This document shows, in pieces, positions 7,122 to 35,677 of a stretch of DNA of 35,677 nucleotides. Source of the DNA: a virus. Location of the stretch: positions 1 to 35,677 of IMG/VR virus record IMGVR_UViG_3300042453_002467, one strand, 5' to 3'. The notes under the pieces are model-generated. The model did not search any database. It worked only from the letters and a program-made list of their open reading frames with translations, and was not told the DNA's origin. How positions within the stretch are numbered: position 1 is the first letter of the stretch; each line of letters opens with the position of its first letter. Position numbers and translations under genes: made by a program.

Positions 7122-8776
7122 GCTCCGGACCTCCGATTACCCGTGCGCTGAACGCGGGCGATTTCGCGTGCGGTGTCTTCTGGCAGCGGTCCGCCAACAC
7201 CATAGCTGATATTGATCACGAGGGGCCCACCGTCGCCGCCGCCGCGGGACGAGCGCGGGGACGCGCCTCGGTCGGTGGCGCTTTTTTTGTCGGGCAGCGG
7301 CCTGCCGATCTGGCCGCCGGCCGCCATGTGCTCAATGCCCGTCGCCGTGCCGCCCAGCGCGACACCAGAGGCAATCAGACCCGCCGCTGCTGCGCCCTGC
7401 GCCGCGGCCAAGGGTTGCAGGCCAGGGGTAAAGGCAGACACCACCGCGCGGCCGCCGAGGTCGATACCGCTGCCGATCAGGGCTTGCCCCGCGGTGCGCA
7501 TGAGCATCGTCGCAAGCGCCGCCTCAGCGTTTTCCTGTCCGGTGATCACGTCGTCAAGGTATTGCTGCGTCCCTGCCGTCAGCGTGGACAGCGCGCCAGT
7601 CGCCACCGATTGCAGGTCGCCGAACGAATCGGCGACGCTATCAACGGCATCTGACCACATGCCGGACCAATCGAATGCCGTCTCCTTCGCGTCAAGGAAT
7701 TCGGCGTTCATCCTTTCGATCTCATCGCTCGTCATGGCAATCGCGCCAGATAGCACCATCGCAGCATCGTCAGCGCCGAGGAATTCGGCGTTCATCCTTT
7801 CGATCTCGTCGGTCGTTGCCGTGACCGCGTGGCTGATGACGGTGAGGTCATCGGCAGCAACCATGGTCGCTTGACCGAACGGGTCCATGATCTCGCTCAG
7901 CGTTCTGGCGAAAATCTGCTCCCGATCTGCGTCCTGCTTGTCGCTGGCAGCCTGCGGCTTCTTGCTGGCCGCAGCCTTTGCTTGCAGCTTGTCGAGCTCC
8001 GATTGCGCTTGAATCAGTCCGCGGGTTGCGTCGGACTGAGTCTTGAGCGCGACTGACAATTCAGCCCTTCGCGCTTCTTCCTTGGCGATCAGGTCGTTGT
8101 TTTCGCGCTGGCGCCGGTTGAGCTCGTCTCGCTCGGCGCCGCTCATGCCGAGACGCCGGCTTTCCTCGATCAATTCAAAGGTCATCGCCTTTCGGCGCTC
8201 GATGCTTTTGTCGAGGTTTTCGAGCCGAGATTCGGTGTCTCTGACCGTCGCCTTGGCTTGAATGACGTCAAGCTCGCCCTGCGTCTTGCCGAATTCTGCG
8301 ATTTCCTTACGCGCCTCGCGCAGCTTCGCCGTCAATTCGATCGTGGCCGCGGTCGTCTGGTCGCGCATCGTTTTGCCATAGTTGGCAAGCGCAGCAGATC
8401 CGACCGCAAGGTTTGTCGTCGTCTCTTTCTGAACCCTCAGATACTCGTCCAGCAGCAGCGTCCCGCCGACGACGGCAACGGCAAACGGGCCGCCAGCCCC
8501 GAAGGCTGCTGCCATCTGGCCGACGCCTGCCACGACCTTGGCAGCCTCGCCGCCGGTCTGCCCGAGGGCACTAGCAACGCCGGAAATCGCAGCGGCCGCG
8601 GGGCCCATCTTTTCCTGTAGGCCCTTTGCAGACTTTTGCATCGCGTCGAGCCGGCCGCTCGTCGTGTTGGCGTTCTGCTCGACCTCGGACAGCTTGCCGG
8701 CGAATTTGGCAACCTCGGCCTGTGCCTGCTTCGCGTCGACGGTGATGACTGTCTCGATCGTTTGGCCCGCCATCAT
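7118..8776 (-). CDS. Tape measure protein
   Basis: A 552-residue protein that sets tail length and is threaded through the tail tube. It is largely helical, with long coiled-coil stretches (residues about 20-60 and 140-285), two glycine/alanine-rich hydrophobic segments (about 65-110 and 420-475) that could act at the host membrane, and a basic, glycine-rich C terminus. The position immediately after the G/G-T chaperone genes is diagnostic. It starts at ATG 8776 with ATGATGG, its first ATG overlapping the upstream TGA. At roughly 0.15 nm per residue, a tail near 80 nm is expected. A tandem 28-residue duplication lies at about residues 315-370. Confidence 0.88.
   Translation of the reverse strand: MMAGQTIETVITVDAKQAQAEVAKFAGKLSEVEQNANTTSGRLDAMQKSAKGLQEKMGPAAAAISGVASALGQTGGEAAKVVAGVGQMAAAFGAGGPFAVAVVGGTLLLDEYLRVQKETTTNLAVGSAALANYGKTMRDQTTAATIELTAKLREARKEIAEFGKTQGELDVIQAKATVRDTESRLENLDKSIERRKAMTFELIEESRRLGMSGAERDELNRRQRENNDLIAKEEARRAELSVALKTQSDATRGLIQAQSELDKLQAKAAASKKPQAASDKQDADREQIFARTLSEIMDPFGQATMVAADDLTVISHAVTATTDEIERMNAEFLGADDAAMVLSGAIAMTSDEIERMNAEFLDAKETAFDWSGMWSDAVDSVADSFGDLQSVATGALSTLTAGTQQYLDDVITGQENAEAALATMLMRTAGQALIGSGIDLGGRAVVSAFTPGLQPLAAAQGAAAAGLIASGVALGGTATGIEHMAAGGQIGRPLPDKKSATDRGASPRSSRGGGDGGPLVINISYGVGGPLPEDTAREIARVQRTGNRRSGA
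7695..7807 (-). repeat. In-frame tandem duplication in the tape measure gene
   Basis: A perfect 29-base direct repeat occurs at 7695-7723 and 7779-7807. The period is 84 bases, exactly 28 codons. The encoded units both contain DEIERMNAEFL and align over all 28 residues with divergence outside that core. This is the trace of an in-frame duplication, which would lengthen the tail slightly. Confidence 0.9.
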
Positions 8777-25474: not shown

Positions 25475-25505
25475 AGAAAAAACCGCAGCAGGATGCGCTG
25501 CGGTT
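25475..25505 (-). terminator. Strong intrinsic terminator of the leftward replication unit
   Basis: AACCGCAGC (25481-25489) pairs with GCTGCGGTT (25497-25505) around a 7-base loop. On the minus strand the stem is followed directly by TTTTCTTGC. It ends transcription coming from the primase gene, 35 bases before the winged-helix gene start. This separates early replication genes from the virion unit. Confidence 0.9.
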
Positions 25506-25537
25506 GGTGTTGGTCAAGTTGAAAAAAAGACCTACCC

Positions 25538-25554
25538 TCGGAATGACATTCCGA
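25538..25554. promoter_or_regulatory. Perfect 17-base palindrome, candidate operator
   Basis: TCGGAATG-A-CATTCCGA is a perfect inverted repeat with 8-bp arms and one central base. It lies in the AT-richer gap between the primase gene and the winged-helix gene. The size and symmetry fit an operator for a dimeric repressor or activator. There is no U-tract, so it is not a terminator. Confidence 0.6.
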
Positions 25555-25574
25555 TTCTTTTCCTTCCTAATTAG

Positions 25575-25663: not shown

Positions 25664-27949
25664 TCACCCGATCAGCCGCAAGCGCGTTGCAGGCCTTCCG
25701 CGGCCTCCGGTTGCGACCTTGTGCGCCTCGAGCCCGCCCTCGTCGGCCAGCCGGGCCAGCGTGGCGTCCAGGGCCATCGCATCCAATGACCGGCAGGCCC
25801 GCAGCAGGTCGGACCGGTCGCACCATCCCTCTGCATCGGCGAGCCGCTGGATCGCGGCCTCGACGTAGGCCACGCGCCCGGCCGCATCGTCCCACGCTGG
25901 CGCACTGTGGTCGCGCAGGCTGCGCGAGATTGTCCAGCCCGACGCCTCGGTCAGCCTGATAGCCGCCTCGGCCATGGGGCGCGTCACGCGCGGCCAGGCG
26001 GGCCATTCGCAGCACAGGATGGCGAGCGCGAGCGCGGTGCGGGTCGCCTGCTCCGCGCATCGGCCCAGCAGCGCGGGCGGCACATCACCCGGCACAGGGT
26101 GCCGCCGCCGATCGTCGCAGTGTTCGCCGTACTGGAAAAGCAGATCCGCGGCGCCCGCGTCCTCGGCCTCCTCGGGGACGTAGAGCGCCAAGGGATCGCC
26201 CTTCGCCGCGTCCCCGAGCTCGGGGTGCCCCCGATGCCACGCCTCGTGACTCTCCCTGCACGCCCTCACCGCCTCGGCCACGGCGCGGGGGATGGCCGCG
26301 CTGCCCGCCGCTGCCCGCTGGCGTTTCGGGAGCACCGACAAGCCCTCGCACCACAAGTGCCGGCCCATGAATCCATCCTCGACGGCGAGCTTTCCGATCG
26401 CATCGTGGAGCGCGGCAGGGGTCGACGACCCGAGGATCGTCAGTCCAGGCGCACGGATGATCCGATCCTGCCCGCCCTTCGTCGCGCTCGTCGCTGCGAC
26501 ATAGGACCCGGTCCCGATCGTCGACAGCGTCAGGATCAGCGCCCTCATCTCTTTCTGGTGCCCGTTGCGGCTGTCAAAGAGGCTTTTCAACCGCGGCCCG
26601 TATTCGTCGAGGACGAGTAGCAGCCCGACGCCCTGCGCCGTCGCCGCTTCGATGCGGTTGATCGTCGATTGCGTCGAGGACCAGTCGTTGGCCCCGATCG
26701 CCGCCGGCCAGCATTCGCGCAGCACCTGCTGTAGCGCCTGCTGCGGGCGCCCCTTGCCCGATGCCGTGGGCGCCACCGACACCACGATCGCGCTCGTCGT
26801 CGTCCGCTCGAACGTCCACCGCCGTTGCCCCAGCGCGGACCCAAGCGCCACCAACGCGCCCACGGTAAGCCCCGGTTGTGGGTAGTCCGCGCCGGCCAAT
26901 GCCCACGTCGGGAATGTGTCGCACAGGCCCCCCAGAGCGCGGATCTCCTCGAGCAGATCCCATTGTGCCCGGTCATCGGGCTCGGGGAGGCGCACGAATT
27001 GCCGAGGTTTCGCCACCGACGCCGACGGTGCCGAGGTGATCGCTTCCCCGTCGACGACGTCAAAGACCTCGGTGCCGGTGATCGCCGCCCCGCCGAAGGG
27101 ATCGGCCGGCAACCTGTCAAGCATATGCCCCGGCGCGTGCCCCTGCGGGTCTGGCTTCGTCGCCGCCTCGCGGACCTTGTGCGCCAGTTCCTTCTCCGAC
27201 CACGGCGGCGAGCATTTGGCGTTCCAATGGCGCATGACATCGAGCGCCGCGCCCTCGTCAAGCCCGAAGCCGGTCACGATCGCGCGCGCCACTTTCATCG
27301 CCGCGACATGCCCGCCTTGCCCCGACACGCTGCCGGGCATGCGTTCCGCGTACCGCCGTGCGCGTTCCTGCGCGACGCTGGCATCACGCCACATCATCGG
27401 CAGGGACGCGCGCTGTTGCGCCTGCGGCGCCGCCTTGGCGCGCTTGTAGGCGCGCATGGCCTCGACGACCCACGTAGGGATCGGTGCTGGCGGCACGTCG
27501 GAAAGGATCTCGTATGTCCCGCCCGCGGTGACGCTGCCCGGGGCGACGACGTAGCCCCCGATCCCCCGCGTGTCGACGTCGGGATATCCGAGGCACGCTT
27601 CGGCCTTCTGCGTGTTCCGCAACACGTCATCGTCGACGACGTCGTCAGGCATCGCGTAGTAGTAGTGAAAGCCCCCGCTAGGCGTCCCGACGACCAGCGT
27701 AGGATCAAGCCTGTCGTGGATCGGGTGTTCGCCGTTCCCGTCAACGTCGACGACGAACAAGCCCGACGCCCGCCCACACGCGATCCCCACTGCGCACGAT
27801 GGGTACCCAGCGAACAGATCGCGCAAACGCGCCTCGTCCGTCGTCGCCCTCGTCGTCCATTCGCCGATGATCGGGCGTTTGTTTTTGCCGACAGGAAACA
27901 CCGCCCATCCTCGCGCAGCGAGGCTCAGGGCTAGATCGATCGATGCCAT
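25664..27949 (-). CDS. Bifunctional primase-polymerase / helicase fusion
   Basis: This 761-residue protein is the largest in the genome. The N-terminal domain is an archaeo-eukaryotic primase (Prim-Pol): VVDVDG (D68 and D70), SGGFHYYY (91-98, H95) and DTRGIGGYVVAPGS (126-139) supply the metal and nucleotide-binding residues. A helical primase C-terminal segment (HWNAKCSPPWSEKELAHKVR) follows. The C-terminal half is an ATPase of the DUF3987 helicase-like type, with PTASGKG (394-400) and LLLVLDEY (443-450). It could prime and unwind at the phage origin. The stop leads into the gap with the terminators. Confidence 0.88.
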   Translation of the reverse strand: MASIDLALSLAARGWAVFPVGKNKRPIIGEWTTRATTDEARLRDLFAGYPSCAVGIACGRASGLFVVDVDGNGEHPIHDRLDPTLVVGTPSGGFHYYYAMPDDVVDDDVLRNTQKAEACLGYPDVDTRGIGGYVVAPGSVTAGGTYEILSDVPPAPIPTWVVEAMRAYKRAKAAPQAQQRASLPMMWRDASVAQERARRYAERMPGSVSGQGGHVAAMKVARAIVTGFGLDEGAALDVMRHWNAKCSPPWSEKELAHKVREAATKPDPQGHAPGHMLDRLPADPFGGAAITGTEVFDVVDGEAITSAPSASVAKPRQFVRLPEPDDRAQWDLLEEIRALGGLCDTFPTWALAGADYPQPGLTVGALVALGSALGQRRWTFERTTTSAIVVSVAPTASGKGRPQQALQQVLRECWPAAIGANDWSSTQSTINRIEAATAQGVGLLLVLDEYGPRLKSLFDSRNGHQKEMRALILTLSTIGTGSYVAATSATKGGQDRIIRAPGLTILGSSTPAALHDAIGKLAVEDGFMGRHLWCEGLSVLPKRQRAAAGSAAIPRAVAEAVRACRESHEAWHRGHPELGDAAKGDPLALYVPEEAEDAGAADLLFQYGEHCDDRRRHPVPGDVPPALLGRCAEQATRTALALAILCCEWPAWPRVTRPMAEAAIRLTEASGWTISRSLRDHSAPAWDDAAGRVAYVEAAIQRLADAEGWCDRSDLLRACRSLDAMALDATLARLADEGGLEAHKVATGGRGRPATRLRLIG

Positions 27950-28007: not shown

Positions 28008-28070
28008 ACCACGCCGCCGCTTCTCCCTCGTCGACGTGTCCGCCCCGGTGAAAGCCGGGGCGTTGTTTTT
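28008..28070 (+). ncRNA. Candidate small RNA antisense to the leftward helicase-primase mRNA
   Basis: The 120-base gap between two leftward genes carries a textbook intrinsic terminator pointing rightward: CGCCCCGG-TGAAAG-CCGGGGCG followed by TTGTTTTT (28041-28070). No rightward protein gene ends here. With a promoter-like pair at 27973-28001, the most economical reading is a short plus-strand RNA of about 60 bases. It would be antisense to the messenger linking the helicase and primase genes. An accidental terminator-like hairpin is the alternative, and no transcript data exist here. Confidence 0.4.
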
Positions 28071-29794
28071 CAGAATGGCAGGTCATCGTCCCCCCAAGGA
28101 TCGACAGGCGCTGGCGCAGGCGCCTCGCCCGCGTCGTCATCGCTACCAGGCTGGCGCCCTGCCTCCTGCACCAGCCGCACCACGCGGGTGAAATCACCAT
28201 CGGGCTTCGTCTCGACCTCGACGACGCGGCGCATTTCGCCTGCTTTCAGTCGCTCGACCGCCTCGGCCACCGTCGTCGGCGCCCTCGTCCCGACATGCTG
28301 CGCCCACCATCGCGTTGCCTTGTCGCCGGCAAAGCCCTCATGCTCGACGCAGATCCATTCGCTCGCGATCTTCGTCGGCACCCACGTCGATGACGCGCCC
28401 TCGGGCTCCGCGGCATAGTAGTCCACGCGCACCGTCGGCGGGCCGTCGCCCGTGCGCTTGCGGTGAGTGAAGAATTCAACATTCCCCACCGCGTGATTCG
28501 TCGACGTAGTGCGCTTTCCGTCGATGGCCCCCGTCGACAGCACCGGCAGGTTGCTCGCCTGCTCGTTCGCTTTTTTCTCTGGCGGGGGGAATTCTGCGTC
28601 GCATTCTGAGCACGTCCGCGCCGACGCAGGTTGCTCCGCAGCACAGTTGGCGCACGTCTTGACCGGCGCGTCGCCGCCACCTTTGCCCGTCTTGGGCTTG
28701 ATCCTGACCTCGTCGACGGGCCCGTGTCTTGCGATGTTCCCGCCGTAGTCAAGGACCAGGCAATCCCGCTTGCCCTCGGCCGGGCGCATCCCGCGCCCGA
28801 CGATCTGGACGTACAGCGAGGGAGACATGGTGGCACGCACGATTGCGAGCACATCGGTACATGGACTGTCGAAGCCGGTGGTTAGGACGTCGCAGGAGAC
28901 GAGACACGGCAGGGCACGTCGACGGAAGCGACCGATGATCGCAGACCGCACCACGGGCTCAGTGTCGCCCGTGATCACAAGCGCCTCGCGTCCTCGAGCC
29001 TGCACCGCCGCGGCCAGATGGTGCGCGTGCGCCACCGAGCACCCGAAAAGCAGCGCCGACGTGCGCCCTGCGTCCAGCGCAGCGACGACGTCCTCGGCCA
29101 CGCGCTCGGTCACGGTGGCCACGTCGGCGGCAAGCTCGAGGTCACGCGCGGCAAACTCGCCTGCCCGCACGGACAGTGCCTCGGTGTCGATCTGCGCCCC
29201 GACCGCGCCCGTCACGAGCGGCGCCAGATACCCCTGCGCGATCAGGCTCGCCACGTCGACACGGTAGGCGATCGAAGTAAACAGGGCCCCGTCGCCTTGG
29301 GTGAGGTAGCCCTGCGACAGCCTGTACGGGGTGGCGGTCAGACCAACGACCCGCAATGCGGGGTTCACCTCGCGCAAGCCCCTCACGAGCGTCTGGTACT
29401 GCCCGTCGCCATCCGGGGGGATCAGGTGCGCCTCGTCGACAATCAGCACATCGACCACGCCCATGTCCTTCGCTTTGCGGGCCACGGTCTGCACGCCGCA
29501 GACGGTGATCGGTGCTGTGCCCCGCTGCCCCAGCGAAGCGGACCAGATCGCCACCGGCGCACGCTCGCCCCAGATCCACCGGCACGCCGCCGCGTCCTGC
29601 TCGATCAACTCGGCGCGGTGCGTGGCAATCACGACGCGCCCGCCGCAGTCCTGCACGATCACCCGCGCAAGCTCGCCGAGGATCGCACTTTTGCCGCCGC
29701 CCGTGGGCACCTCGACGAGCGGGTGCAGCCCACCGCGCTCCCAATACGCGAGCACCGCGTCGACCGCGGCCTGTTGGTAGTCACGGAGTTTCAC
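28070..29794 (-). CDS. SF2 DEAD/DEAH-box helicase with zinc ribbon and SSB-like C-terminal tip
   Basis: A 574-residue helicase. The start is GTG 29794, overlapping the upstream TGA as GTGA and giving the usual N terminus KLRDYQQAAVDAV; ATG 29806 is an alternative. Motifs: PTGGGKS (30-36), DEAH (120-123), TATPY (153-157), TTGFDSP (305-311) and QIVGRGMR (330-337). A four-cysteine zinc ribbon (CANC then CSEC, 381-398) follows. The C terminus ends DPWGDDDLPF, close to the acidic tip that bacterial SSB uses to bind partners. It probably unwinds or remodels DNA at the origin or during recombination. Confidence 0.9.
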   Translation of the reverse strand: MKLRDYQQAAVDAVLAYWERGGLHPLVEVPTGGGKSAILGELARVIVQDCGGRVVIATHRAELIEQDAAACRWIWGERAPVAIWSASLGQRGTAPITVCGVQTVARKAKDMGVVDVLIVDEAHLIPPDGDGQYQTLVRGLREVNPALRVVGLTATPYRLSQGYLTQGDGALFTSIAYRVDVASLIAQGYLAPLVTGAVGAQIDTEALSVRAGEFAARDLELAADVATVTERVAEDVVAALDAGRTSALLFGCSVAHAHHLAAAVQARGREALVITGDTEPVVRSAIIGRFRRRALPCLVSCDVLTTGFDSPCTDVLAIVRATMSPSLYVQIVGRGMRPAEGKRDCLVLDYGGNIARHGPVDEVRIKPKTGKGGGDAPVKTCANCAAEQPASARTCSECDAEFPPPEKKANEQASNLPVLSTGAIDGKRTTSTNHAVGNVEFFTHRKRTGDGPPTVRVDYYAAEPEGASSTWVPTKIASEWICVEHEGFAGDKATRWWAQHVGTRAPTTVAEAVERLKAGEMRRVVEVETKPDGDFTRVVRLVQEAGRQPGSDDDAGEAPAPAPVDPWGDDDLPF

Positions 29795-30378
29795 GTTGCA
29801 CCCCACTGTGCCGCCATCGCCTCAGCGATCCCTTGGTAGGTCTTGCTGCGGATCTTCCACCGATCCGGCGATGGTCCGAGTTTGTTTTGTCCGCTTGGTG
29901 TTTGATTGCCCCGCCTCGCCCGCGGCCCACCAGGGAGCACGGCAGACGGCAAGAGGGGCGGAAGGCCCTTCAACCACAGGCATGTCGCCTTGCTCGCGTC
30001 CTCGCCGTGTTGCCAAGGCTGGATGATTTGATCCGGCTTGCGCCACCTCGACGACAGCGCCCCGATCGGGTTCTCGATAGCGATGCGCCCGATCGGTGCG
30101 TTGGCGAGCGCGAGAACGAACGCTAGCGCCTGCTCAGTCTGCGCGGCGCGTTCCGGCCTGCGCTTGTTCCAATGCAGTCCCGACGACGCCAGATAGGTGC
30201 AGGGCGGGTGAGCAATCATCATGTCCCACCCGTCGCCGATGACGTCGAGCACATCGCCTTGATGGTGCGGGCCCGGTCTGTCCGTCGGTAGAAGGTCGCA
30301 AGACCACGCATCGTGCCCCAAAGCACGGAAAGACTCTCGCACCGTTCCGCTGTATTCGCACGCGACAAGCACCCTCAT
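29791..30378 (-). CDS. Cytosine-C5 DNA methyltransferase-like protein
   Basis: A 195-residue protein of the phage cytosine methyltransferase-like family. It has an AdoMet-binding start (RVLVACEYSGTVRESFRALG), the catalytic-loop motif PPCTYL (58-63, C60), IENPIG (101-106) in the place of motif VI, and a conserved RKPDQIIQPWQHGEDASKAT stretch. It is short because the usual target-recognition domain is missing, so activity and target site are uncertain. It is the first leftward gene from the divergent promoter and overlaps the helicase gene by GTGA. Confidence 0.82.
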   Translation of the reverse strand: MRVLVACEYSGTVRESFRALGHDAWSCDLLPTDRPGPHHQGDVLDVIGDGWDMMIAHPPCTYLASSGLHWNKRRPERAAQTEQALAFVLALANAPIGRIAIENPIGALSSRWRKPDQIIQPWQHGEDASKATCLWLKGLPPLLPSAVLPGGPRARRGNQTPSGQNKLGPSPDRWKIRSKTYQGIAEAMAAQWGAT

Positions 30379-30430
30379 CCGATCACCTCCCGATCACGCG
30401 CGGATCCGTTCCGCGTCGCGCCCTAAAGCC

Positions 30431-30459
30431 ACCGTAGCCTTGATCTGCACTTTCGTCAA
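30431..30459 (-). promoter_or_regulatory. Leftward early promoter
   Basis: On the minus strand TTGACG (30459-30454) and TACGGT (30436-30431) are separated by 17 bases. The -35 box lies within the palindrome shared with the rightward promoter. It would drive the methyltransferase-like, helicase and primase genes. The leader to ATG 30378 contains GGGAGG near the start codon. Confidence 0.75.
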
Positions 30460-30472
30460 GCGCACGCTTGAC
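30455..30472. promoter_or_regulatory. Palindromic operator shared by divergent promoters
   Basis: GTCAAGCG-CA-CGCTTGAC is a perfect inverted repeat with 8-bp arms. Each arm contains most of one -35 hexamer, one facing left and one facing right. A protein bound here would block both promoters at once, or choose between them. The likely ligands are the small HTH proteins of the rightward unit. Confidence 0.78.
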
Positions 30473-30496
30473 ACGTCAGCAGATCGGGGCTACAGT
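30468..30496 (+). promoter_or_regulatory. Rightward early promoter
   Basis: TTGACA (30468-30473), a perfect -35 box, lies 17 bases before TACAGT (30491-30496). Transcription would start near 30503 and run into the small wHTH gene at 30543. Its spacer and -10 region mirror the leftward promoter, sharing GCAGATC at the same place. Confidence 0.85.
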
Positions 30497-30542
30497 GATC
30501 TCATCAACCGCGGCGAACGCCGCACACAGCAGGGAGACACAG

Positions 30543-30740
30543 ATGACCAGCAAGCAGATCAACGTCGTCGATTTCGTTCGCAACAACCCCGGCTGCTGCA
30601 TCATGGACGTCGTCCGGTACGAGTGGGGCGGGCGTGGGCACATGGCCAGCTATGCGCGGGTCAATCGTCTCGTCCGTGCTGGCGTGCTGCGCAAGCAGCG
30701 TATCAGCGGTAGCCGTGTGGCCTTGTTCGTCCGCGCCTGA
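30543..30740 (+). CDS. Small winged-helix-like DNA-binding protein, first gene of the rightward unit
   Basis: A 65-residue protein; the start ATG 30543 follows CAGGGAGACACA and lies after the predicted transcription start at about 30503, so the longer frame from 30468 is not used. The sequence (DFVRNNPGCCIMDVVRYEWG, then SYARVNRLVRAGVLRKQRIS) fits a winged helix: recognition helix, then a beta wing ending SRVALFVRA. As the first gene after the shared operator it may be the autoregulator that binds the palindrome. This is inferred. Confidence 0.78.
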   Translation: MTSKQINVVDFVRNNPGCCIMDVVRYEWGGRGHMASYARVNRLVRAGVLRKQRISGSRVALFVRA

Positions 30741-30874: not shown

Positions 30875-31570
30875 ATGCAGTCGCTCAAGATTCGTCTGCG
30901 CGAGGCGATCGATGCCCGCGCCCCCAAGATCCTTGTGTATGGCGGTGCCGGCGCCGGAAAAACCACGCTGATTGCATCGCTCACTGGAAAGATCCTGATC
31001 ATCTCTGCCGAGGCCGGGCTGCTGTCGCTGGCCGGCGCCGACATCGATGCCGACGTGGTCGAGGTCACGTCGATCGAAGCCCTCCGCGCCGTGTATGCCG
31101 AGCTTCGTGCCGGGGACCATGGATACGCATGGGTCGTGCTCGACAGTGTGTCCGAGATTGCCGAGGTGGTCCTATCCGCGGAAAAGCAGAAATCGAAGGA
31201 CCCGAGGGCCGCCTATGGCGCCTTGTCCGACGAAATGGTCAAAATCATGCGTGCTTTCCGCGACTTGTCGTGCGGCGTGTATTTCTCGGCGAAGCTGGCG
31301 TCGACCAAGGACGAGGCGACGGGCAAGGTCAGCCATTCGATCGGGATGCCAGGCGCCAAGCTTGGCGAGGCGCTGCCCTACTTGTTCGACGAGGTGTTCC
31401 GCTTGATCGTCGTCGACGAGGACGACGGCGCGGGCGGCAAGGTGGCGTCGCGCTATCTGCTGACCGCCACCGACGGAAGGAGCGTCGCCAAGGACCGCAG
31501 CGGGAAGCTTGACGCCTACGAACCCGCCGACCTCGGCGCGGTCGTGGCGAAGATCGGCGGTGCAGCGTGA
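30875..31570 (+). CDS. Sak4-like RecA-fold recombinase ATPase
   Basis: A 231-residue RecA-fold ATPase with Walker A GGAGAGKT (23-30) and Walker B-type WVVLDS (86-91). Size, layout and the following DUF669-type gene match Sak4-like phage recombinases, which promote single-strand annealing or exchange together with an SSB-like partner. The C-terminal part (KVASRYLLTATDGRSVAKDR) is typical of the family. It starts 1 base after the tiny upstream gene and overlaps the next as GTGA. Confidence 0.88.
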   Translation: MQSLKIRLREAIDARAPKILVYGGAGAGKTTLIASLTGKILIISAEAGLLSLAGADIDADVVEVTSIEALRAVYAELRAGDHGYAWVVLDSVSEIAEVVLSAEKQKSKDPRAAYGALSDEMVKIMRAFRDLSCGVYFSAKLASTKDEATGKVSHSIGMPGAKLGEALPYLFDEVFRLIVVDEDDGAGGKVASRYLLTATDGRSVAKDRSGKLDAYEPADLGAVVAKIGGAA

Positions 31571-32931: not shown

Positions 32932-33171
32932 GTGATCGACAGGTACCGCGGCCCGCGCCGCATTCGACTCGATGGCGAGCGCCTTGCCGCCCTGCGGGTC
33001 GCGCGAAACTACAGCCTCGCGCACGTCGCCAGTGTGTGCGGCGTGACCAGGCAGGCGGTGTGCCTGTGGGAGCAAGAACGCGCCGTCCCCGACGACCGCT
33101 GCTGTGACCGGCTGGCGTCCCTTTTTGGGCCCGACCTCGCGCCGGCCCTTAGCGTGCGGGTGTGGGAATGA
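32932..33171 (+). CDS. XRE-family helix-turn-helix protein
   Basis: A 79-residue protein; the start GTG 32932 has GAGGTG just upstream. Residues 15-60 match the XRE/Cro helix-turn-helix: LAALRVARNYSLAHVASVCG, then VTRQAVCLWEQERAVPDDR. It is about the size of a lambda-type Cro or a small repressor. It overlaps the next gene as ATGA. It may bind one of the palindromes in this genome; which one cannot be told. Confidence 0.82.
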   Translation: MIDRYRGPRRIRLDGERLAALRVARNYSLAHVASVCGVTRQAVCLWEQERAVPDDRCCDRLASLFGPDLAPALSVRVWE

Positions 33172-35176: not shown

Positions 35177-35677
35177 ATGACGGCACAATTGTATCTCGGA
35201 CGCTGGCAGGATGCGCTGGCGCAGATCGATCGCGTCGATGCGGTGATCACCGACCCACCCTACGGGGCGCGGACGCACGAGGCCACGAACGCCCACATCG
35301 CAGGCAGCGACCTGCCCGACGGCGCCGAGCGAACAGCCATCGCCTACGACGCGATGGCGCCTAGCGAGGTTCACGCGCTCGTCGAGGCATGGGCGTCGCG
35401 GTGTCGCGGGTGGATCCTCGCCATGACGTCGCACGATCTGATTGGCGCCTACGAGCAGGCCTATCGCAACGCGGGACGCGCCACGTTCGCGCCCATCCCC
35501 ATCATCCAGAAGCGCCCGCGCCTCGTCGGGGACGGGCCTGCGTCGTGGGCGGTGTATGCGATGGTCAGCCGCCCGCGGACGCGCGAATTCTCGACGTGGG
35601 GATGCCTCCCAGGCGCGTACGAAGCGCCGACGGAAAAGGGCGTGGGCATCGCGGGGGCCAAGCCCATCGACCTCATG
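35177..35677 (+). CDS. DNA methyltransferase, beta class, N-terminal part (continues at 2)
   Basis: This frame is open to the window end and continues at base 2, giving a 230-residue protein. It starts at ATG 35177 with GAGGGAGAG just upstream. DPPY lies at residues 26-29 (VITDPPYG), the catalytic motif. The region after it (ILAMTSHDLIGAYEQAYRNA) is a helical part of the methyltransferase fold. The AdoMet motif comes later, across the join. See the C-terminal entry for the class and likely role. Confidence 0.93.
   Translation, partial: MTAQLYLGRWQDALAQIDRVDAVITDPPYGARTHEATNAHIAGSDLPDGAERTAIAYDAMAPSEVHALVEAWASRCRGWILAMTSHDLIGAYEQAYRNAGRATFAPIPIIQKRPRLVGDGPASWAVYAMVSRPRTREFSTWGCLPGAYEAPTEKGVGIAGAKPIDLM
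35551..35677. repeat. Terminal direct repeat, right copy (assembly overlap)
   Basis: This is identical to 1-127. It closes the circle: the methyltransferase reading frame passes through the join in the same phase. Confidence 0.95.

Follow-up and report, generated by a model that had tools for sequence, protein, structure and literature searches.

A mirror-symmetric early promoter pair and its putative shared operator in a group of uncultivated tailed phages

The region at 30431–30496 appears to control early transcription in an uncultivated tailed phage that is probably lytic; a Cro/c2-like HTH protein would bind a single dyad there and repress two operons together. We put the probability of this reading at about 60%. 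Two host sigma-70 promoters, placed back to back, would start a leftward replication operon and a rightward recombination operon. After early transcription, a dimer of the protein encoded at 32932–33171 would bind the GTCAA-N8-TTGAC dyad and cover both −35 boxes, so that both operons would be turned down jointly. Because this protein would be made from the rightward operon, it would also feed back negatively on itself, giving an autoregulated early shut-off. Mirrored CAGATC boxes in the middle of the two promoter spacers may be the second part of a composite operator, to which additional copies of the HTH protein or another phage protein would bind, and a protein placed there would also block polymerase.

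Genome organization around the divergence point

The window (the whole stretch of DNA analysed, an IMG/VR virus record of 35,677 nucleotides) has identical 127-bp ends, at 1–127 and 35551–35677; the genome is therefore complete and circular, with a length of 35,550 bp. A DNA methyltransferase gene with a TDPPYG motif spans the junction at which the window ends meet on the circle. The control region is the main point of strand divergence in this genome: leftward genes run from 30378 down to ~1422, and rightward genes run from ~30.5 kb, across the end of the record, to ~1.1 kb. The few opposite-strand open reading frames within the rightward stretch are short and were taken as spurious. Searches with Rfam and for tRNAs gave no matches, and a search for close cultivated relatives found none.

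The leftward genes begin with a DNA methyltransferase (phrog_757; 29791–30378, minus strand), the place of which is not kept in relatives, followed by a conserved helicase that forms the left flank of the junction (28070–29806, minus strand), a primase-polymerase (prim-pol; 25664–27949, minus strand), a hairpin with a T run that resembles an intrinsic terminator (25481–25505, minus strand) and then the terminase genes. This hairpin would close the leftward early unit ahead of the packaging genes. Several hairpins are present between prim-pol and the packaging genes (25479–25560), of which the strong terminator-like one is that on the minus strand from 25505 to 25481. In the rightward direction, a poorly conserved 65-aa protein that is unlikely to be a regulator (30543–30740, plus strand) precedes the conserved Sak4-like ATPase of the right flank (30875–31570, plus strand), an SSB-like protein, HTH proteins, a RusA-like protein (so named from a reading of its protein sequence), an exonuclease and a MazG-like protein; the last gene of the unit encodes a 138-aa protein with paired Cys motifs (678–1094). 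The gene order bears out one part of the sequence-only reading: the control region is divergent, with a replication unit to its left (methyltransferase, helicase and prim-pol) and a recombination unit to its right (Sak4, SSB-like, RusA-like and exonuclease), and two predicted early promoters face outward between these putative early operons.

That reading had also proposed a coupled or exclusive switch. Back-to-back promoters 8 bp apart could sterically exclude each other, such that either leftward or rightward transcription wins, as in a decision between lysis and lysogeny. However, both arms hold lytic replication or recombination genes, no integrase or lysogeny repressor was recognised in the proteins scanned with PHROGs, and a capsid query against 84,980 bacterial and archaeal genomes found no relative, and hence no prophage relative. 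We consider an exclusive switch of this type extremely improbable. A lysogeny switch of any kind is unlikely in the window phage, many genes of which are still unannotated.

Anatomy of the promoter pair and dyad

The rightward promoter (TTGACA-N17-TACAGT; 30468–30496, plus strand) has its −35 box at 30468–30473, its −10 element at 30491–30496 and a predicted start at ~30503. The leftward promoter (TTGACG-N17-TACGGT; 30431–30459, minus strand) has its −35 box at 30459–30454, its −10 element at 30436–30431 and a predicted start at ~30424. The two −35 boxes, both near consensus, lie back to back and 8 bp apart. All of these elements were found where the sequence-only reading had placed them, as were GCAGATC in both spacers and GGCTAC(A/G)GTG at both −10 regions, and a single symmetrical site does overlie the −35 boxes of both promoters. 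This dyad, GTCAAGCG-CA-CGCTTGAC (30455–30472), is the proposed operator core; it covers most of both boxes and is centred ~40 bp upstream of each predicted start. Its description as a perfect 18-base palindrome needs correction, as GTCAAGCGCACGCTTGAC differs from its own reverse complement at two central bases: 16 of 18 positions are symmetrical, and the 8-bp arms flank a non-complementary CA.

When arms of 40 nt were compared about the centre, 26 of 40 positions matched, the best value in the window (next best, 23); at least 26 matches were reached in 2 of 40 Markov shuffles, and arm identity taken alone is weak evidence. The individual elements carry more weight. The sequence GCAGATCNNGGCTACRGTG occurs exactly twice in the window, in the two promoter arms. 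The rightward promoter is the sole sigma-70-like site genome-wide that scores at least 9/12, and a back-to-back sigma-70 pair is present once in the genome and in none of 40 Markov-3 shuffles.

Conservation of the mirror in relatives

We compared 80 IMG/VR loci that encode Sak4 relatives. About a dozen distinct relatives, referred to here as class A, share the mirror at the helicase/Sak4 junction, and because of this conservation the promoter mirror cannot be attributed to chance. Its form is GATCTG-N6/7-GTCWA-N8-TTGAC-N6-CAGATC; exactly 8 bp separate the −35 boxes, and the promoter spacers are 17 bp long. GTCWA-N8-TTGAC is at the identical position in all class A relatives that have upstream sequence, and CAGATC is present in both spacers of most of them (a few have one mismatch). 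A scan of 2.9 million IMG/VR viral contigs for the mirror recovered 15 stretches, all from class A relatives; the mirror was found away from the helicase/Sak4 junction in a single relative, which has it there as a second copy. Cellular genomes yielded a single match, which is inside an efflux gene and was judged to be chance, and a one-arm pattern matched IMG/VR contigs at a chance-like rate. The sequence-only reading took the region for one promoter duplicated in inverted orientation. Outside the motifs, the two arms of one genome have an identity of 0.33, and arms from different genomes one of 0.35; arms of the same genome are thus not especially alike, which rules out a recent inverted duplication.

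The dyad is partly explained by the promoters alone, because GTCAA and TTGAC double as their −35 boxes and the inner 8 bp are often asymmetrical (0–3 of 4 pairs are symmetrical in class A). Two near-consensus sigma-70 promoters might therefore suffice, with polymerases competing for the common −35 region and no phage protein on the dyad; the constant N17 spacing and the poor symmetry of the inner bases in several relatives would both fit. Against this stand the second mirror copy described below, which retains TTGAC and CAGATC in its reverse arm without a −10 element, a 1-nt movement of CAGATC relative to the constant 17-bp spacer, and the dyads of two other classes (C and D, below), which are at the same junction and are not −35 boxes. 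We regard promoters acting without a dyad-bound protein as unlikely.

The second mirror copy is in the class A relative L094, at 7447–7491, between prim-pol and the packaging genes, and retains GATCTG-N7-GTCAA-N8-TTGAC-N6-CAGATC. The forward arm contains TTGACA, CAGATC and TAGACT. In the reverse arm, TTGAC and CAGATC are at the mirror spacing, but the spacer has diverged and there is no −10 element, nor any gene that would require one. Retention of the half-sites without a second −10 implies that the mirror is a binding site and more than two promoters. This copy is a single case and is the best evidence that we have for the mirror as an operator or protein-binding site, a role for which it argues. 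Around it, at 7340–7500 of L094, six CAGATC boxes fall within 140 bp, some of them as inverted or direct pairs.

A candidate regulator and its operator classes

The rightward early operon encodes a small candidate HTH regulator, the 79-aa Cro/c2-like protein at 32932–33171 (plus strand). It matches Pfam HTH_31 at 27.9 bits, against a curated cut-off of 27, and its AlphaFold model (pLDDT 92.5) has a predicted fold resembling P22 c2, SinR, DdrO and CylR2. This protein was one of three that had been put forward as candidate binders of the dyad, with those at 30543 and 33168. It alone among the HTH genes is present in all mirror-bearing genomes that cover the region and is retained as the candidate; the other two are not conserved among mirror-bearing genomes and were dropped as regulators. 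The HTH protein at 323–685 was likewise rejected, being absent in G003, G004 and G006.

Homologues of the 32932–33171 protein are encoded downstream of sak4 in other clades, the junctions of which bear different dyads: TCAA-N9-TTGA in class B, TTCTATC-N7-GATAGAA in class C and TTGTAGC-N4-GCTACAA in class D. The recognition helices of the small HTH protein (TRQAV, T(S/A/G)AAV, SVASL and TAAA in classes A, B, C and D, respectively) track the operator class at the junction, and no cross-class dyad was found at the helicase/Sak4 junction among the junctions compared. In the full genomes examined, the class A or class C dyad is confined to the junction, with two copies in G002. The window genome has a single zero-mismatch dyad and accordingly no tandem operators of the OR1–3/OL1–3 kind. 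The fifth base of the class B half-site varies symmetrically in some phages (C/G in L023, G/C in L311 and A/T in L024). A clean dyad is missing in L021, L022, L036 and L037 of class B, which counts against the main reading; L009 also has none, its upstream sequence being too short. The class C dyad of L039 has a shorter spacing. At the class C junctions (L040, L043, L046 and others), two TTGAC boxes face inward across TTCTATC-N7-GATAGAA. This suggests overlapping promoters that point towards each other and have leaders in mirror image, so that the junction would be symmetric here too but arranged in another way.

On the Sak4 tree, which they track closely, the operator and HTH classes change only five times; this tempers their association, and discordant loci therefore carry weight. 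In L311, Sak4 and the helicase are equidistant from all classes, the HTH protein is clearly class B (66%) and the junction has a perfect class-B-type dyad, TCAAGAAT-A-ATTCTTGA; this locus supports pairing of HTH protein and operator. In L037, the HTH protein is class B whereas Sak4 and the helicase are class C/D-like, and no C, D or clean B dyad is present; its bearing on pairing is ambiguous. G037 has a class-A-like HTH protein (66% identical, helix SRQAV) and neither the helicase nor Sak4, and a search of it for GTCWA-N8-TWGAC found none anywhere; a similar HTH protein with the operator missing counts as evidence against pairing. G037 (L350 and L351) is a mosaic phage that has the class-A-like HTH protein, exonuclease and methyltransferase in common, but not the helicase or Sak4. 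In two of its promoter-like sites, the spacer contains CTAACGCGGCGTTAG or a sequence close to it. Overall, the association between HTH and dyad classes, with G037 as the negative case, leads us to infer that the 32932–33171 protein binds the dyad over both promoters.

A more far-reaching reading is that HTH protein and operator have been exchanged as a pair at one mirror-symmetric site, giving at least four incompatible specificities, and that in class A two proteins bind a composite of dyad and CAGATC. We offer this only tentatively and think it rather doubtful. Such a paired exchange would resemble the immunity types of temperate phages, yet these phages show no sign of lysogeny.

Binding of the HTH protein to the dyad might instead activate, switching both operons up together. 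Relative to each predicted start the dyad is centred near −40, the position used by class II activators, and one promoter has a weak −35 box (TAGACA) in L011, L013, L015 and L020. In the window, however, the −35 boxes are near consensus and covered by the site, as repression predicts, and the gene of the putative regulator lies downstream of the promoter. Activation seems to us distinctly unlikely, and joint repression remains the preferred account of what the protein would do.

CAGATC elements

The CAGATC elements lie at 30480–30485 (plus strand) in the rightward spacer and, as its mirror, at 30442–30447 (minus strand) in the leftward spacer, and all class A arms have CAGATC or one mismatch to it. 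In leftward arms, the distance from TTGAC to CAGATC is 6 or 7 nt depending on the relative, and the promoter spacer is always 17; this shift indicates that CAGATC is separable from the promoter and is not a core promoter part. Genome-wide, 38 CAGATC sites were seen and 35.9 expected, which is no enrichment beyond GATC content; GATC itself is over-represented in the whole window (300 strand matches, with 219 expected from dinucleotide shuffles). Additional boxes are present in the leftward leaders of L011, L012, L017 and L019, relatives that are closely related to one another, and some of these boxes are ~31 and 20 bp apart.

The boxes could be initiator sites of a replication origin, opened by the promoters. 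The position between replication and recombination genes would suit an origin, as would the additional boxes in these four leaders and at the second site of L094. But CAGATC lacks the genome-wide enrichment noted above, the mirrored pair is missing in classes B–D and, by eye, no AT-rich unwinding stretch could be made out in 30380–30545. We judge an origin to be very improbable and favour a role for CAGATC within the putative operator.

As to what might bind CAGATC, the 138-aa protein at 678–1094 is a weak candidate that appears to be class-A-specific (every full class A genome has it, as do 0 of 3 full class B/C genomes compared). Self-regulation of the methyltransferase (29791–30378) through CAGATC is unlikely, because CAGATC is not enriched genome-wide beyond GATC content; the gene is also missing in most mirror-bearing relatives.

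Comparison with known control regions

In lambda, early control operates at pL and pR with Cro and cI. The window resembles lambda in that its two putative early operons would start from divergent promoters and one of these operons would supply a small Cro-like HTH protein. It differs in that its back-to-back promoters share a single dyad, whereas in lambda an immunity region lies between the promoters and the operators are in tandem, and in that no cI or integrase was recognised in the window phage.

The earlier contrast with classical phages, said to use separate operators, was overstated: in the temperate telomere phage PY54, Cro acts through a single palindromic operator in the cI/cro region (PMC4488713). 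The window shares with PY54 a phage Cro-type protein, here a putative binder, and a single palindromic operator (PMC4488713), but places that operator between replication and recombination operons. The CI–MOR system of TP901-1 has divergent promoters and a composite OM–OR operator that forms a lysogeny switch with two characterised repressors (PMC7250872). The window likewise has divergent promoters and two element types, both conserved in class A, as in a composite operator; its CAGATC binder, by contrast, is putative. In plasmid pLS20, the overlapping divergent promoters Pc and Pr are regulated by the Xre-family protein RcoLS20, encoded by one of them, with looping between operators (PMC4207663). 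The window would likewise have overlapping divergent promoters, one of which would drive the gene of a small Xre-family HTH protein, although pLS20 controls plasmid conjugation with DNA looping and the window junction shows one dyad. Bidirectional promoters of Escherichia coli have a −10 element in common and starts ~10–23 bp apart (PMC12825309). They are like the window in their pseudo-symmetrical DNA, divergent transcription and possible competition between polymerases, but the window pair is not a bidirectional promoter in the sense of Warman and Grainger, as its −10 elements are separate (30431–30436 and 30491–30496) and its predicted starts are ~79 bp apart.

Small HTH proteins that act on operators shared by divergent promoters are already known (PMC4207663, PMC4488713 and PMC7250872). 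What seems new, judging from the sequences compared, is the composite site in mirror image, together with an HTH protein and operator that appear to have been exchanged at a fixed junction.

Implications

If the proposed control is correct, a single dimer site would govern leftward and rightward early expression alike, and the small divergent promoter part could serve as a useful laboratory regulator. Four natural pairs of HTH protein and operator at one location would give access to the recognition rules of Cro/c2-like proteins. They would also make it possible to ask whether distinct repressor specificities arise in phages that do not form lysogens, perhaps directed at relatives that infect the same cell.
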